This document shows, piece after piece, positions 11,089-17,756 of a stretch of DNA of 33,253 nt. This DNA is from Paenibacillaceae bacterium (GTDB lineage Bacteria; Bacillota; Clostridia; Lachnospirales; Lachnospiraceae). Numbering within the stretch: position 1 is the stretch's first letter; each line of letters starts with the position of its first letter. The notes below the pieces were generated by a model that was not told the origin of the DNA, made no database searches, and worked only from the letters and a program-made list of their open reading frames with translations. The DNA is taken from assembly GCA_015057775.1 (NCBI GenBank), contig SVDT01000016.1, forward strand, positions 1 to 33,253, given 5' to 3'. The translations under genes and the position numbers were made by a program.

Positions 11089-11124
11089 TATAGGATTAAT
11101 GAGAAATGATATCAGTAAATGTTC

Positions 11125-11153
11125 TTGCTTTTTGTCACTTCTTGTGATATCAT
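11125..11153 (+). promoter_or_regulatory. Promoter of small RNA copy 1
   Basis: TTGCTT (11125-11130), 17-bp spacer, TATCAT (11148-11153). The predicted start near 11160 coincides with the base of the first RNA hairpin. The equivalent promoter with identical spacing stands before copy 2. Confidence 0.6.
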
Positions 11154-11159
11154 GAGCTT

Positions 11160-11297
11160 AGTTAGCAATAACTAACTACATGTGAATATTCTATACATCA
11201 GACTAACCCTCTGAGATTATCCTTCATTGACCCGTGAGGGATCATGACTCCTACAAAAAACCCGCCCCTGTAACCGCATGACAGGGACGGGCTTTTT
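11160..11297 (+). ncRNA. Structured small RNA, copy 1 (family not recognised)
   Basis: About 138 nt, no sensible ORF. Hairpin 1 AGTTAG/CTAACT (11160-11177); hairpin 2 TCAGA/TCTGA (11198-11214) with C-rich loop CTAACCC; hairpin 3 TGACCC-GTGA-GGG-A-TCA with a GNRA loop and one bulged A (about 11228-11244); then a terminator hairpin whose loop ACCGCATG is shared with copy 2. The next gene downstream is on the opposite strand, so this cannot be a 5' leader and must act as a free RNA. The loop CUAACCC can pair with GAGGG-type ribosome sites, suggesting antisense regulation, though this is inference. A paralogue lies at 14936-15073. Confidence 0.75.
11255..11297. terminator. Bidirectional terminator shared by small RNA 1 and GH31 gene
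   Basis: Stem CCCGCCCCTGT (11261-11271) with ACAGGGACGGG (11281-11291), one mismatch; T-run 11293-11297 on the plus strand and the A-run 11255-11260 gives a U-run on the minus strand. It ends the small RNA and, from the other side, the GH31 transcript whose stop codon is at 11305. Confidence 0.85.
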
Positions 11298-11304
11298 GGT
11301 TTTG

Positions 11305-13806
11305 TTACATACCAATCATATCAAACTGCTGGAATGAGATCACAAGTCTGCAGTCTTTTTTAGGATTCGGATATTTAATCTGAACGGACTTTAATGTCTG
11401 GCTGTAATACCAGCCGCAGTCTGCTGCTTCGAATTTTTTACGATACAGGAAATGAGGAAGTTCCCTGCCGTCTAATGTAATCCAGAACGGCGCCTTGTCT
11501 CTGCGGATTACATCTAAATAAATATTCTCAACCGTGGTCTGATAGCTGCCTTCCTGCTTGAATTCCACGACGGTCTGTTCACCAGAAGTCATTGTGATTT
11601 CAGTCTTTAAATAATCTCCGTTCTGATAATTTAATGTAGTGCCATCATCCTCGTAGAGTGTAAATGAATTGTCTTTACCAGCAGCAAGCAGCAGGTGGAT
11701 TCCCGTAACAGTCTCGGTGGTTAAGTTATTCATCTGGTTGGCTGCCATAGGAATGATTGCACCTTCCCTTACAAAGAGAGGGATACTTGCCATTGTTACT
11801 GGGAACTCAAGGGTTTGTCCGCCCTCGAATCTTTCTCTGGTATAGAAATCATAGAACGTCTCACCCTCAGGGAGGTAAACCTTTCTTGTAAGAGCACCTT
11901 TTTCCACAACATTAGCTACCAGCAGAGAATCACCGATCATAAAATCAATGCCTTCTTCATAACAGGCAGGATCATTCTGGAATGCGCTGCACATGGGTTC
12001 CATAATAGGCAATCCGGTTTCGTGGGCACGTTCCATAAGAGAGTACAGATAAGGGATCAGTCTGTAGCGGAACTTGATGGCATCCCGGATATATCCGGTG
12101 TGATTTCCGTACATCCAGGGTTCTGTAACCGTATTATCTGTATTTACGGAGTGCACGGAAAATCTCGGCTGGAAAATACCGTTTTGAATCCAGCGGACCA
12201 TCAGCTCTGCTTCCGGAGATGTACCGTAAAATCCGCCGATGTCACAGCCCTGATTTGCCACGCCGCTTAAACTCATGCCCAGTATGGTTGCAATGTTGTA
12301 TTTCAGTGAATCCCAGCAGGTTAAGTTATCTCCAGCCCAGGTCTGAGCGTAGCGCTGAATTCCGCTGTGTCCGGACCGGCATACAATAAAAGGTCTGGTG
12401 TTGTCAAAGGTCTCATGAATGGCCTCATCAGTGATCTGGCACATGATATTGGACATTACGGATTTCAGCTGGCCGATTGTACCGCCTTTTCCTTCAAAAT
12501 CACAGCGGCAGTCTTTATCCACCATGCTGTCATATTCACAGTTATCGTTCCACACCGAGCAGGTTCCCATTTCCAGGACATTTTCCTTTAACATTTCTTT
12601 CCACACGCTGCGGGTTACGGGCTTGGTGAAATCGGCGAAAACTCCCTTGCCGCCCCACCAGGTACCAATGCCGGGCTCGTCGCTCTGACTGTCTTTTACA
12701 AAGATATCTTTTGCTTTCATCTGTTCCAGATTGGGGTGGGAAAGAAGAATTCCGGGTTTTACGTTTGGAGATACGGTAATTCCTCTTTTCTTCATCTGTG
12801 CAAAAAAGTCTCTTGGATTTTTAAAGCGTTTTTCATTCCAGGTAAATACACAGCGTTTTACACCCTGCTCCGTGTCCTGAGAGGTGTAACCGGAGGAAAG
12901 CTGGAAACCATCGACCGGGATATCCTCTTCTTTGGTTGTATCAATAAATTCTGTAATTGCGTCATCACAGTCGGCCTCCAGCTCGGGATAATACATGGAC
13001 GAGCCAAGATATCCAAGTGCATACCGGGGAAGCATGGCGGATTTACCGGTAAGATCGGTATAACCGGAAACAACCTCACGAATAGAAGGACCGGCAATCA
13101 GGAATAAATCAATATCACCGCCGTCGGTACGATACCGGCTGTGAGGTTTCCAGTAATTGCTCTTTTCTCTCCCCATATCAAAATCGCATTCATAAGTATT
13201 ATGATAGAAATATCCCACTGCTTTTTTTGAATCGCGGTTCAATTTAATGTAAAACGGAATGTGCTTATACAGGGAATCTGTTTCCTTTGGGTTATAACCC
13301 ATGGCATCCTTGGGACTCATGGATAGGAACTTCTGTGCTTTATTCCACTGCCCGCTTTTCTCACCAAATCCGTAGAAGCAGTCCTGGGGTGAGATCTCAC
13401 TGGTATGAATCCGGCGATGATTGCTGTCCTCTAAATATCCAAGGTCTACAATATCAGAATGAAGACAGGTGCCTTCTTTATCATAAACGCAGATACGGAA
13501 TGGATCTTTATCAATAATAACCTTTAACTGGGACCCGGTCAGAATGGCCTGTTCTTCGGTCTGGCTGAGATCTGCATTGGCTGGAACTACCCGCTTTCTC
13601 TGCCCTTTTAAAAGCCCGTCCATGCGGTCCTCCCATGCAGTCATAACCAGACTGTAGGATTCTTCCGCAAAATCACCGTCAAATCCGGCGCGGATTCTTA
13701 AAATGGTTTCTGTTAAAAACTGTACCCGGATCTCGATGGAATTGGTAATTATTTTAAAATAACCATCCATCTCCTTTACTTCATTCACGTTTGTACATAG
13801 CTTCAT
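11305..13806 (-). CDS. Glycoside hydrolase family 31 (alpha-glucosidase/alpha-xylosidase-like)
   Basis: 833 aa, no signal peptide, so it acts on imported oligosaccharides. Order: N-terminal beta-sandwich (about 1-250), TIM barrel (about 255-600), C-terminal beta domains. The catalytic nucleophile is Asp421 in SVWNDNCEYD and the acid/base is Asp493 in WAGDNLTCWD, the two GH31 signatures; RPFIVCRSGHSGIQRYA precedes the latter. The usual WNDMNE is altered to WNDNCE: the nucleophile stays, the Met-Asn pair is Asn-Cys. GH31 covers alpha-glucosidases, alpha-xylosidases, sulfoquinovosidases and others, so the substrate cannot be fixed. ATG 13806 follows AAAGGAG. It is transcribed divergently from an esterase across a control region with mirrored operators, which suggests coordinated expression. 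Confidence 0.9.
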   Translation of the reverse strand: MKLCTNVNEVKEMDGYFKIITNSIEIRVQFLTETILRIRAGFDGDFAEESYSLVMTAWEDRMDGLLKGQRKRVVPANADLSQTEEQAILTGSQLKVIIDKDPFRICVYDKEGTCLHSDIVDLGYLEDSNHRRIHTSEISPQDCFYGFGEKSGQWNKAQKFLSMSPKDAMGYNPKETDSLYKHIPFYIKLNRDSKKAVGYFYHNTYECDFDMGREKSNYWKPHSRYRTDGGDIDLFLIAGPSIREVVSGYTDLTGKSAMLPRYALGYLGSSMYYPELEADCDDAITEFIDTTKEEDIPVDGFQLSSGYTSQDTEQGVKRCVFTWNEKRFKNPRDFFAQMKKRGITVSPNVKPGILLSHPNLEQMKAKDIFVKDSQSDEPGIGTWWGGKGVFADFTKPVTRSVWKEMLKENVLEMGTCSVWNDNCEYDSMVDKDCRCDFEGKGGTIGQLKSVMSNIMCQITDEAIHETFDNTRPFIVCRSGHSGIQRYAQTWAGDNLTCWDSLKYNIATILGMSLSGVANQGCDIGGFYGTSPEAELMVRWIQNGIFQPRFSVHSVNTDNTVTEPWMYGNHTGYIRDAIKFRYRLIPYLYSLMERAHETGLPIMEPMCSAFQNDPACYEEGIDFMIGDSLLVANVVEKGALTRKVYLPEGETFYDFYTRERFEGGQTLEFPVTMASIPLFVREGAIIPMAANQMNNLTTETVTGIHLLLAAGKDNSFTLYEDDGTTLNYQNGDYLKTEITMTSGEQTVVEFKQEGSYQTTVENIYLDVIRRDKAPFWITLDGRELPHFLYRKKFEAADCGWYYSQTLKSVQIKYPNPKKDCRLVISFQQFDMIGM

Positions 13807-13847
13807 AAGGCATATACTCCTTTACTGTAATTCTTAAACAGGTTTGT

Positions 13848-13876
13848 GATATAATCATAAAGAAAACGGCAATCAA
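13848..13876 (-). promoter_or_regulatory. Candidate GH31 promoter
   Basis: Minus strand TTGATT (plus-strand 13871-13876), 17-bp spacer, TATATC (13848-13853). Both boxes are imperfect, 4 of 6 at the -10, which fits an activator-dependent promoter. The 18-bp operator copy at 13878-13895 abuts the -35 box. Confidence 0.45.
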
Positions 13877-13877
13877 A

Positions 13878-13895
13878 TACTAGACTAAAATTGCA
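13878..13895 (-). promoter_or_regulatory. Mirrored operator, GH31 side
   Basis: TACTAGACTAAAATTGCA, the inverted counterpart of 14009-14026 with 17 of 18 positions matching. It stands one base upstream of the GH31 -35 box. Confidence 0.55.
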
Positions 13896-14008
13896 GACTG
13901 TCAGTCAAAACTATACATATCTTGCACTCTTTCAGAAGGAAATATCCCGGATAAAGACGCAAACCTGAGGATAAAAGAGCAAAATAGGTATAGGATATAT
14001 CAAAAAAG

Positions 14009-14026
14009 TGCAATTTTTGTCTAGTA
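14009..14026 (+). promoter_or_regulatory. Mirrored operator, esterase side
   Basis: TGCAATTTTTGTCTAGTA. A good -10 box TATAAT lies at 14045-14050, but the position where its -35 should be (14022-14027, TAGTAC) has no consensus and falls on the end of this operator. That is the expected layout for an activator replacing a missing -35 contact. Confidence 0.55.
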
Positions 14027-14073
14027 CTATAAAAGGAAGACGAATATAATGGAGAAAAAAGGAGGTTTCAACC

Positions 14074-14874
14074 ATGGCCAGTATGAATTGTCATTATTAT
14101 AGTTATTCTTTGGGACATACCGTGGACGTCAATGTATTTGTACCAACACCAGAGGGAAATGAGCAGATCACCAGTGAATCAGCAAAGAAAGCATTTCCTT
14201 ATGAAAAAGGTCTGCCAGTCCTGTATCTGCTTCATGGAGCGTTTGGTGATTACAGCTCATGGATGCGTTTTTCCAACATCGAGCGTTATGCTCAAAAGCA
14301 TTGCTGTGTGGTAGTTATGGCTTCAGCGGAAAATAGCTTTTATCAGGATATGTATCATGGAAACCGTTACTTCACCTTCTTTTCAGAAGAACTTCCTGGA
14401 TTTATTAAAAGTATTTTTCCAGTTTCTAAAAGACGGGAGGATACCTTTGTAGCAGGACTGTCCATGGGAGGCTATGGAGCATGGTTTCTGGGATTGTCAA
14501 AACCGGAGCAGTATGCCAAGGCTGCCAGTATGTCTGGTGCGCTTAATATTGTAAAAACCTTTGAGCAAATTAAAAATGGATCCATTGATGGTCCGTTCCC
14601 CTGGAAAAATATTTTTGAAAATCCGGAGGAACTTACTGGAAGCAGTTCAGATCTGATGACTCTGTATGACCGCTGCGTAAATGAAGGAATCGTACCGGAG
14701 CTTTATCAGGCCTGCGGAACGGAAGATTTCCTTTATGAAATGAATAAAGAAGTAAAGAAAATAATGGAAGAAAAGGGTGCTCATGTTATTTATGAGGAAG
14801 GACCGGGCAATCATAACTGGGATTTCTGGGATCAGTATATCAAGAATGTCCTGCAATGGATGCTTCCGGTATAA
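14074..14874 (+). CDS. Esterase D/putative esterase family hydrolase
   Basis: 266 aa, cytoplasmic (no signal peptide). Alpha/beta hydrolase of the Esterase_phd type (tributyrin esterase EstA, acetylxylan/feruloyl esterase relatives): LLHGAFGDYSSWMRFSNIERYA near 52-73, nucleophile elbow GLSMGGYGA with Ser130, probable Asp218 (GTEDFLY) and His247 (GNHNWDFW). ATG 14074 follows AAAGGAGGT. It is divergent from GH31 across 267 bp, with matching operators, so both probably respond to the same signal; an esterase removing acyl groups from sugars before glycosidase action is plausible. No clear terminator is seen after it; the small RNA copy 2 promoter follows at 14902. Confidence 0.87.
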   Translation: MASMNCHYYSYSLGHTVDVNVFVPTPEGNEQITSESAKKAFPYEKGLPVLYLLHGAFGDYSSWMRFSNIERYAQKHCCVVVMASAENSFYQDMYHGNRYFTFFSEELPGFIKSIFPVSKRREDTFVAGLSMGGYGAWFLGLSKPEQYAKAASMSGALNIVKTFEQIKNGSIDGPFPWKNIFENPEELTGSSSDLMTLYDRCVNEGIVPELYQACGTEDFLYEMNKEVKKIMEEKGAHVIYEEGPGNHNWDFWDQYIKNVLQWMLPV

Positions 14875-14901
14875 TTGAGAATTCTTTCTTATAAAGAGGG
14901 C

Positions 14902-14930
14902 TTGTTTTTTAAGAAACCTTATGATATTAT
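14902..14930 (+). promoter_or_regulatory. Promoter of small RNA copy 2
   Basis: TTGTTT (14902-14907), 17-bp spacer, TATTAT (14925-14930), same geometry as copy 1. Confidence 0.6.
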
Positions 14931-14935
14931 TATGA

Positions 14936-15073
14936 CAGTTAGTTAATCCTAACTGCGTGTGAATATTCTAACATCAGACTAACCCTCTGATTGCATCCTT
15001 CATTTGACCCGTGAGGGATCATGACTCCTACGAAAAAGCCGTACCTGTTACCGCATGACAGTACGGCTTTTTT
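14936..15073 (+). ncRNA. Structured small RNA, copy 2 (family not recognised)
   Basis: Paralogue of 11160-11297 on the same strand. Hairpin 1 CAGTTAG/CTAACTG (14936-14955) keeps the stem while its loop differs from copy 1 (TTAATC instead of CAATAA). Hairpin 2 ATCAGA/TCTGAT (14973-14991) has the identical loop CTAACCC; hairpin 3 TGACCC-GTGA-GGG-A-TCA is identical. The terminator stem (15033-15073) has quite different bases but still pairs, GCCGTAC with GTACGGC, and keeps the ACCGCATG loop. Stem change with pairing maintained is good evidence for a selected RNA structure. It ends 41 bp before the LysR gene; on its own it could be mistaken for a leader, but copy 1 shows that it stands alone. Confidence 0.75.
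15033..15073 (+). terminator. Terminator of small RNA copy 2
   Basis: AAAAAGCCGTAC (15033-15044) pairs with GTACGGCTTTTTT (15061-15073); the conserved loop region CTGTTACCGCATGACA lies between. U-run on the plus strand and A-run on the left arm. Confidence 0.85.
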
Positions 15074-15114
15074 GGTTAAGAAAAAGAAGAAAAATATGGT
15101 GAAAGGAGTAATAA

Positions 15115-16050: not shown

Positions 16051-16111
16051 CCTGATTTGTATTAGTAAGTCATCACTAACTATGCTATAGTTAACACCAT
16101 AGCAAATCAGG
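16051..16111 (+). promoter_or_regulatory. nikA control region: palindrome and Shine-Dalgarno inverted repeat
   Basis: TAACTAT-GCT-ATAGTTA (16077-16093) is a perfect 7+3+7 palindrome overlapping a possible -10 (TATGCT 16081-16086, 18 bp after TTGTAT 16057-16062). Around it, CCTGATTTG (16051-16059) is perfectly repeated inverted as CAAATCAGG (16103-16111), whose right end overlaps the nikA ribosome site AGGAGG (16109-16114). The palindrome is a likely operator. The outer repeat could mask the ribosome site only in transcripts starting upstream, for example readthrough from lysR. Confidence 0.5.
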
Positions 16112-16121
16112 AGGAGCAATT

Positions 16122-17756
16122 ATGAAAAAAAGATTATTATATACCTGCCTGGCAGGTGTTATTTCTGCAGCACTTTTAGCAGGGTGCCAGAAGCAGGGCA
16201 GCAAAGAAGCTGCAGCAACCGGTAAAGAACAGGCGAACACAGAAGCAACGAAAGTATCTGAGGGGGCGCCAAAGGATGAACTGGTATTTGTAAATTTCCG
16301 GGATATCAGAGATTTAAATCCCCATCTGTATGCCGGAGAGATGTATGCCCAGGAAATGCTTTACGAGACTCTTGTCACAATAACTGCTGACGGTTATGCC
16401 CCCTGCCTGGCAGAGAGCTGGAACATAAGTGAAGACGGAAAGACCTATACATTTAAAATCAGAAAGGGCGTTACCTTCTCTGACGGTGAGGTGTGTGATG
16501 CCAATGCCATTAAGGCAAATTTTGATGCTATTATTGAAAACAAGGAACGTCATACATGGCTGGAAATGATGAATCTGCTGGTGGGAGTATCCGCTCCTGA
16601 TGCAGAAACATTTGTCATTGAGCTATCACAGCCATATTACCCCATGCTGACAGAACTGGGGGTTACAAGACCATTTGCAATGATTTCACCTAAGGCCATG
16701 AAAAACGGAAGCACAAAGGACGGTGTGGAAGCTTATATCGGAACTGGTGCTTATGTGCTGAAGGAATCTGTTACAGATGAATATGCTGTATTTGAGGCAA
16801 ATGAAAACTACTGGGGCGAAAAACCAAAGGTGAAAAAGATCACTGTTAAGGTGATCCCGGACAACCAGACCCGTATTCTTGCGCTGGAAAAAGGTGAGAT
16901 TGATTTAATCTTCGGTAAGAATATGATCGATGCTGATGCAGTGAACAAATATAAGGAAAGTGATAAGTTTTCCGTAGCATTGTCTGATCCCACGTCAACC
17001 AGACAGATCGTAATTAATACGACCAATGATATTTTAAAGGATAAGGCAGTGCGTCAGGCAATCCAGCACGCTACCAACCGCCAGGCGATCTCAGACGGTA
17101 TTTTCTATGGTCTGGAAGCACCTGCTGATACACTGTTTTCCAAGACAGTTCCTTACTGTAATATTGAATTAACTCCCTATGAGTTCAGCCAGGAAAAGGC
17201 TGCTAAGATGTTAGATGAGGACGGCTGGGTTATGGGCAGTCAGAATATAAGAGAAAAAGATGGAACACCTCTGAAACTGACTCTTTTATATAACAGCGAC
17301 AGCGTTACTGAAAAGACCATTGCAGAATATCTTCAGTCTGAATATGGCAAGCTTGGAATCGGACTGGAGATCAAGGGGGAAGAAGAACAGTCTTACCGAG
17401 ACAATATGAAAACAGGAAACTTTGACATGGTGTTCAACATCTGCTGGGGAACGCCCTATGATCCACAGTCTTCTCTGGCTGCCATGAGACAGCGGGTATA
17501 CGGAGATTACGCAGCACAGCTGGGGCTTGAGGATAAGGCAGAGATTGATCAGGCAATTACGGAAATACTGGTATCTACACAGGAAGAAAAGCGCCAGGAG
17601 CTGTACCGCTTCGTTCTGACCAGACTTCATGAGGATGCGGTATACATCCCTCTTACCTATGAATGCAATAAGGCAATCTACGGGTCAGATTTAAAAGGGG
17701 TAGGATTTACCCAGACTCAGTATGAAGTACCTTTTGCTCAGATGTATTTTGAATAA
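16122..17756 (+). CDS. nikA: NikA-like ABC transporter substrate-binding lipoprotein (family 5)
   Basis: 544 aa; signal peptide with lipobox LLAGC (Cys22), then an SBP family 5 fold. Long stretches follow E. coli NikA: LNPHLYAGEMYAQEMLYE, LAESWNISEDGKTYTF, NENYWGEKPKVKKIT, LTRLHEDAVYIPLTY. Arg183 (VTRPF) matches the NikA arginine that holds the carboxylates of the metal chelate. The NikA metal ligand His416 (MIFHRTWG) is replaced by Asn439 (MVFNICWG), so direct nickel binding in the E. coli manner is doubtful; a metallophore, opine or peptide-like ligand is an alternative. ATG 16122 follows AGGAGG. First gene of nikABCDE-M14, after the LysR regulator, and followed by a hairpin at 17787. Confidence 0.85.
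   Translation: MKKRLLYTCLAGVISAALLAGCQKQGSKEAAATGKEQANTEATKVSEGAPKDELVFVNFRDIRDLNPHLYAGEMYAQEMLYETLVTITADGYAPCLAESWNISEDGKTYTFKIRKGVTFSDGEVCDANAIKANFDAIIENKERHTWLEMMNLLVGVSAPDAETFVIELSQPYYPMLTELGVTRPFAMISPKAMKNGSTKDGVEAYIGTGAYVLKESVTDEYAVFEANENYWGEKPKVKKITVKVIPDNQTRILALEKGEIDLIFGKNMIDADAVNKYKESDKFSVALSDPTSTRQIVINTTNDILKDKAVRQAIQHATNRQAISDGIFYGLEAPADTLFSKTVPYCNIELTPYEFSQEKAAKMLDEDGWVMGSQNIREKDGTPLKLTLLYNSDSVTEKTIAEYLQSEYGKLGIGLEIKGEEEQSYRDNMKTGNFDMVFNICWGTPYDPQSSLAAMRQRVYGDYAAQLGLEDKAEIDQAITEILVSTQEEKRQELYRFVLTRLHEDAVYIPLTYECNKAIYGSDLKGVGFTQTQYEVPFAQMYFE

Follow-up and report, generated by a model that had tools for sequence, protein, structure and literature searches.

The DNA analysed here is a 33,253-nucleotide (nt) stretch of contig SVDT01000016.1 (positions 1 to 33,253; hereafter the window) from a Lacrimispora genome (Lachnospiraceae). 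It carries two units of about 140 nt, at approximately 11158-11298 (copy 1) and 14935-15075 (copy 2), which have a promoter, hairpins and a terminator in common and appear to encode a small RNA (sRNA). Both units, like the other window features given below with coordinates, lie on the plus strand. The promoters are sigma-A-like with a 17-nt spacer (TTGCTT-17-TATCAT at 11125-11153 and TTGTTT-17-TATTAT at 14902-14930), were read from the sequence and could be aligned across homologues, and each copy has an intrinsic terminator. Transcription probably starts about 6 nt downstream of the promoter in both copies; the RNA ends are likewise predicted, in copy 1 from the promoter and terminator. Copy 1 begins with a putative operator, AGTTAGCAATAACTAACT (11160-11177), which is also hairpin 1. 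There follow a nearly invariant single strand, ATGTGAATATTCTATACA (11180-11197), with the bases around its 5' end able to pair with the terminator loop; hairpin 2, with the loop CTAACCC (11198-11214); hairpin 3, TCCTTCA/TGAGGGA with the open loop TTGACCCG (11220-11241); the linker TCATGACTCCTAC (11242-11254), with an anti-Shine-Dalgarno-like ACTCCT; and the terminator, with the conserved loop ACCGCATG and a T run (11261-11297). The ACTCCT motif is invariant in the alignment and is present even in the most distant credible homologue (L069). In copy 2, the operator and hairpin 1 are formed by AGTTAGTTAATCCTAACT (14937-14954).

An earlier note, made from this sequence alone, had described the two units as paralogous structured sRNAs. 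Both were found at the positions it gave, with 87% identity across 131 nt, and their folding was stronger than that of dinucleotide shuffles (z -4.4 and -5.5; none of 200 shuffles was as good for either copy). The hairpin 2 loop, the run GGGATCATGACTCCTAC and the terminator loop that it had listed as shared are present in both copies, the terminator stems are unlike in sequence yet paired in both, and a separate promoter and terminator could be read for each. The note had recognised no known family, and a search of Rfam 15 with the window and 10 homologue loci likewise gave no match at gathering thresholds; sub-threshold matches of copy 1 had E values of about 0.06 or worse and fell mainly on the terminator. 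No match to the RNA was found in plasmid and phage collections, and among the literature matches listed no title named an iron-responsive or other sRNA of these bacteria. Absent from the earlier note were hairpin 1 (AGTTAG-N6-CTAACT), common to both copies, and the operator that the RNA shares with iron-uptake genes.

Analysis of the occurrence of the AGTTAG-N6-CTAACT dyad revealed 112 sites in 19 Lacrimispora genomes (3-12 in each), of which usually one to three per genome were sRNA copies, against 3 sites for a reversed control. Six RNA-carrying genomes of other genera had 24 sites against 2 for the reversed control, and 12 order-level genomes had none or one each. A BLAST search with 14 query proteins identified an iron-uptake open reading frame (ORF) of the FeoB, FecCD or siderophore-binding type at 26 of 57 loci around further dyad sites, compared with 1 of 70 control loci, which were the surroundings of an unrelated 10-mer. 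After removal of the 14 query loci the counts were 12 of 43 versus 1 of 70 (p 2.9e-5, both counts within 1.5 kb), and 5 of 43 versus 1 of 70 within 500 bases (p 0.03). With L123 (a further copy of the RNA), seven sRNA control loci and ten repeated controls also excluded, 12 of 42 versus 1 of 53 were left (p 1.8e-4). It should be noted that these p values are optimistic, because some dyad loci are orthologous to one another. We also scanned 50 proteins, representing part of the genes at the dyad loci. Siderophore-type binding proteins (Peripla_BP_2) were found eight times (L117, L122, L126, L127, L129, L135, L139 and L147), FecCD permeases three times (L121, L275 and L281), FeoB four times (L272, L282, L283 and L285) and ZIP transporters twice (L277 and L287), together with a superoxide dismutase (SOD; L155), two peroxiredoxins, and also AraC regulators, ABC exporters and the products of unrelated genes, for example enolase. 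The window's own genome has feoB behind a dyad (L116). The RNA and iron-uptake genes have this operator in common, as would be expected of an iron-repressed trans-acting sRNA. From the enrichment, the RNA therefore looks like a member of the iron-uptake regulon, an assignment we regard as well supported by the comparison of genomes. Since the RNA starts with a switch found beside iron-uptake genes, it is probably made under iron shortage.

To characterize the RNA itself, we examined an alignment of 25 sequences, including six distant ones, which had been fitted to the structural model and so favours it. Of its cells, 96.7% are paired, and double-sided changes occur at 18 of 29 pairs, a result reached by none of 500 shuffles; structures slid along the same alignment dropped to 31-46% paired cells. 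In an unfitted MAFFT alignment 93.4% of cells were paired, nine pairs had double changes, and all five measures exceeded all shuffles. Covariation was most extensive in the terminator (9 of 10 pairs) and in hairpin 3 (6 of 7 pairs, with 98.9% of cells pairing), and the UGACCC loop of the latter is largely kept. The hairpin 3 of the earlier note thus exists, whereas the pairing drawn for it, TGACCC-GTGA-GGG-A-TCA, is no better than in shuffles and is better drawn as TCCTTCA/TGAGGGA; the former could be a second form of the hairpin. Hairpin 2 is reshaped outside Lacrimispora, and its CUAACCC loop, put forward as a seed for antisense pairing, is a trait of that genus and does not serve as a universal one. 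In hairpin 1, six of seven pairs are the same in all 25 sequences, from close and distant relatives alike, because hairpin 1 doubles as a DNA operator. Thus, its primary role appears to be that of a DNA operator, with RNA folding secondary. What looks like an invariant "RNA hairpin" can therefore be a DNA operator, which calls for caution in RNA discovery based on conservation only.

Homologues were found well beyond this locus, in line with the expectation that a covariance model would recover them in Lachnospiraceae. The window's genome has two copies, and all 25 genomes of the genus that were searched had a match. The RNA was intact in 24 of them, since G012 holds only its 3' half (L047:6917-7062), which has no operator and is apparently a decaying copy. 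A pattern scan of named records led to Lacrimispora species, Clostridium-named relatives and bins under other names. The covariance model for the family search, built from 32 sequences, matched 10 of 397 family genomes at E<=0.01: two Lacrimispora, seven credible divergent homologues in six other genera (G088, G101, G187, G204, G227, G308 and G415) and one match (L070 in G395, E 0.004) that was taken out of the count, as it shares little beyond the first hairpin. A match in G039 consisted of the operator alone and was also rejected. All seven distant homologues have a second dyad, GTTAG-N6-CTAA, overlapping the -10 region. An order-wide search matched 7 of 392 genomes at E<=0.001, all of the same family (five Lacrimispora, G227 and a weak match in G711). 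Both the family- and order-wide counts are lower bounds because the search filters were strict. Copy number and architecture vary: G007 has a third, diverged copy (L123), G022 has two tandem copies about 200 nt apart (L057:6978-7326) and a third, diverged copy elsewhere (L058), and the G415 RNA (L068:1402-1631) has nearly 90 additional nt separating the 5' strand from hairpin 3. On these comparisons, the RNA would represent a new family of a known functional kind, with its regulon link well supported and its action predicted.

In the gut, where iron is contested, Lachnospiraceae are abundant anaerobes and rely on Fe-S enzymes. We propose, with a probability of roughly 60%, that the element is a trans-acting sRNA of about 140 nt that is repressed by iron, is made together with iron-uptake systems and spares iron by pairing with Shine-Dalgarno sequences. 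The RNA would be transcribed from its own promoter. When iron is plentiful, an iron-sensing repressor would bind the AGTTAG-N6-CTAACT dyad over the transcription start and keep the RNA off; when iron is short, the RNA would be made along with FeoB and siderophore-type uptake systems. Its open C-rich elements, the UGACCC loop of hairpin 3 and the ACUCCU linker, would then cover Shine-Dalgarno sequences, and the targets would be messenger RNAs (mRNAs) whose products spend iron, as for IsrR and FsrA. Sequence comparison shows the structured RNA family, the dyad and that iron-uptake genes share this dyad; from these we infer iron as the signal, repression by a bound protein and base pairing on iron-using mRNAs. 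That C-rich open elements are able, in principle, to pair with Shine-Dalgarno sequences had been suggested before, and this still holds. It is a more tentative proposal, to which we would give slightly less than even odds, that this is a new iron-sparing RNA family of Lachnospiraceae, compact and unlike RyhB, FsrA and IsrR, with an iron-repressor site transcribed as its first hairpin and a nearly invariant strand locked to the terminator loop. With the RNA and its operator defined and likely co-regulated genes listed, the regulator and the targets are directly testable.

Among known systems, FsrA has the chaperones FbpA-C, PrrF1 and PrrF2 of Pseudomonas lie close together, and MrsI of Mycobacterium is under the DtxR-type regulator IdeR. 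IsrR of Staphylococcus appears to be the best model for this RNA. As described (PMC9410917), it likewise has an iron-linked operator, three hairpins and a terminator, acts in trans and occurs genus-wide; it also has three C-rich open regions in loops or linker, and some of its stems show little covariation. Its C-rich regions lie in loops and beside a stem, and pairing over the Shine-Dalgarno sequence and AUG was proposed there (PMC9410917). Compared by plan, the two differ in that IsrR is Fur-controlled according to the same source, whereas here the main operator spans the transcription start and becomes hairpin 1 of the RNA. According to the same source (PMC9410917), FsrA of Bacillus subtilis is similar in being iron-responsive and in binding Shine-Dalgarno sequences with a C-rich motif, PrrF1/PrrF2 in being two paralogous iron-linked sRNAs, and MrsI in being an iron-sparing sRNA, possibly with a DtxR-type regulator here as well. 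On the other hand, no Rfam link was found between FsrA and this RNA, PrrF is Hfq-dependent (PMC9410917) and MrsI belongs to another phylum, the latter two having been compared by description.

Several observations weigh against the proposed reading. More than half of the dyad loci (31 of 57) had no recognised iron-uptake ORF, and two dyad sites lay inside an ORF (L141 and L146). The FecCD and Peripla_BP_2 families serve vitamin B12 as well. DtxR-type and Fur-type proteins both occur and are both candidate repressors; the operator half-sites resemble DtxR boxes only loosely. One copy in G007 lacks ACCC in the hairpin 3 loop. In addition, an exact search for the linker complement, GGAGTCATGA, gave 136 matches in ten genomes, sRNA copies included, and at the 54 distinct places outside sRNA copies no ORF start was found; with a looser choice of starts, one site (L218) lay at a possible internal start. 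The start regions of aconitase-family genes at 30 loci showed no consistent pairing signal, and the 11 genes with Fe-S or radical-SAM motifs among 534 genes (40 stretches of G002) behaved like the rest, in a comparison that was underpowered. A DtxR-family start region with good pairing in G009 was rejected as a candidate, as it is conserved only in part in G002 and is not conserved in G000. In one genome, the 5' strand scored best with the start region of a presumably IspG-like gene. No convincing RNA target thus emerged, a weak negative from partial samples only.

An operator shared with iron-uptake genes, yet no target signal at aconitase or Fe-S genes, is also what would be expected if an sRNA of the iron regulon did not spare iron and acted on the envelope, sporulation or carbon use, or tuned the uptake genes. 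In the 534 genes of G002, the strongest pairing of hairpin 3 (-20.8 kcal/mol) was with the start region of a gene at L366:2351 (minus strand) that presumably is spoIIAB. However, this pairing depends on the G002 loop sequence, which is unlike the common loop, and iron-sulfur enzyme mRNAs are common targets of IsrR, FsrA, RyhB, PrrF and MrsI (PMC9410917). We consider this alternative unlikely.

The RNA might instead bind or sequester a protein, with the strand UGUGAAUAUUCUA and its pseudoknot with the terminator loop as the protein site. This strand is among the best-kept parts of the RNA, with one base changed in L069, and 99.0% of cells in the Lacrimispora alignment preserve the six pairs that it can form with the terminator loop; since the pairs hardly vary, they offer no covariation proof. 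In contrast, the partner loop is missing in L069, and some of the pairs are disrupted in L065-L067. The strand may also be a DNA element, as TGTGAATATTC is commoner outside sRNA copies than its reversed control: of 68 matches found across 12 genomes, 19 belonged to sRNA copies, and the other 49 compare with 19 for the control. One such site outside sRNA copies is L345 (G009:C1:4878003). On these counts, UGUGAAUAUUC is a candidate second DNA operator. Taken together, a protein-binding role seems distinctly improbable. A small mRNA, with a peptide starting at the ATG of TCATGACTCC, is scarcely credible: the ATG follows GAGGGATC or GAAGGATC in nearly all alignment rows but is lost in L035 and L058, and the frame enters a terminator stem that carries insertions and deletions. 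This coding reading was rejected for want of a conserved ATG.

At individual dyad loci, some further genes and elements could be seen. In the window's own genome, a NifH/frxC-family gene lies directly behind an operator site (L118). In L132 and L150 the dyad is ahead of a DUF2325-type gene, and further on is a protein (start MSKIAVVYWSGTGNTE) that we take to be a flavodoxin, as might be expected under iron starvation. In L279:2501-2560 (G101), the operator is followed at once by an apparent terminator hairpin and T run, which is perhaps another short iron-regulon RNA.

Both copies have an additional dyad upstream of the promoter: TGAGAAATGATATCA (11100-11114), which is Fur-box-like and starts 60 nt before the operator of copy 1, and TGAGAATTCTTTCTT (14876-14890), aligned with it in copy 2. 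Scored against a Fur consensus, 50 distinct, partly near-identical, upstream regions averaged 9.7 of 14 versus 8.5 in shuffles, 27 of them scored at least 10 of 14 versus about 12% of shuffles, and the best match lay at -59 to -61 in 41. The Fur resemblance of the copy 2 dyad is weak because its best Fur-like match is elsewhere, at -27. The upstream dyad near -60 is possibly a second metal-responsive site, with weaker evidence than that for the operator.

Finally, the gene neighbourhood bears on whether the RNA acts in cis. A co-directional gene lies immediately downstream of copy 2 and of some single copies, as expected for a leader or attenuator of that gene. However, copy 1 faces a GH31 gene on the opposite strand, the genes downstream differ by species (TopA, LysR, GH31 and others), and the strong terminator argues against a leader. 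Judged by sequence only, the promoter and intrinsic terminator belong to the RNA independently of its neighbours. Because these neighbours vary, a cis leader, which the earlier note had already dismissed, is largely refuted and appears highly improbable. The two copies flank a GH31 and an esterase gene at 13 loci, window included, and at five loci (L035, L043, L047, L049 and L050) a MATE transporter gene is on one side of the RNA and topA on the other; the presence of AraC/GH31/esterase and LysR/ABC-transporter genes beside it varies. That note's further suggestion that the RNA may control the sugar and peptide genes next to it finds no support: GH31, esterase and AraC genes are missing beside the RNA in eight of the 24 intact genomes (G001, G002, G006, G008, G009, G014, G015 and G022). 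The peptide-type ABC operon of the window is preceded by a variant of the same operator, AGTAAG-N6-CTAACT (AGTAAGTCATCACTAACT, 16064-16081), 58 nt before its first gene, which encodes a family-5 solute-binding protein (SBP_bac_5; 16122-17756). The variant is also kept in related species: twelve loci were tried and 11 rows were returned, in eight of which 11 of 12 positions are kept. Thus, the operon looks co-regulated with the RNA, a more economical link than antisense control, and may transport an iron- or heme-related substrate.

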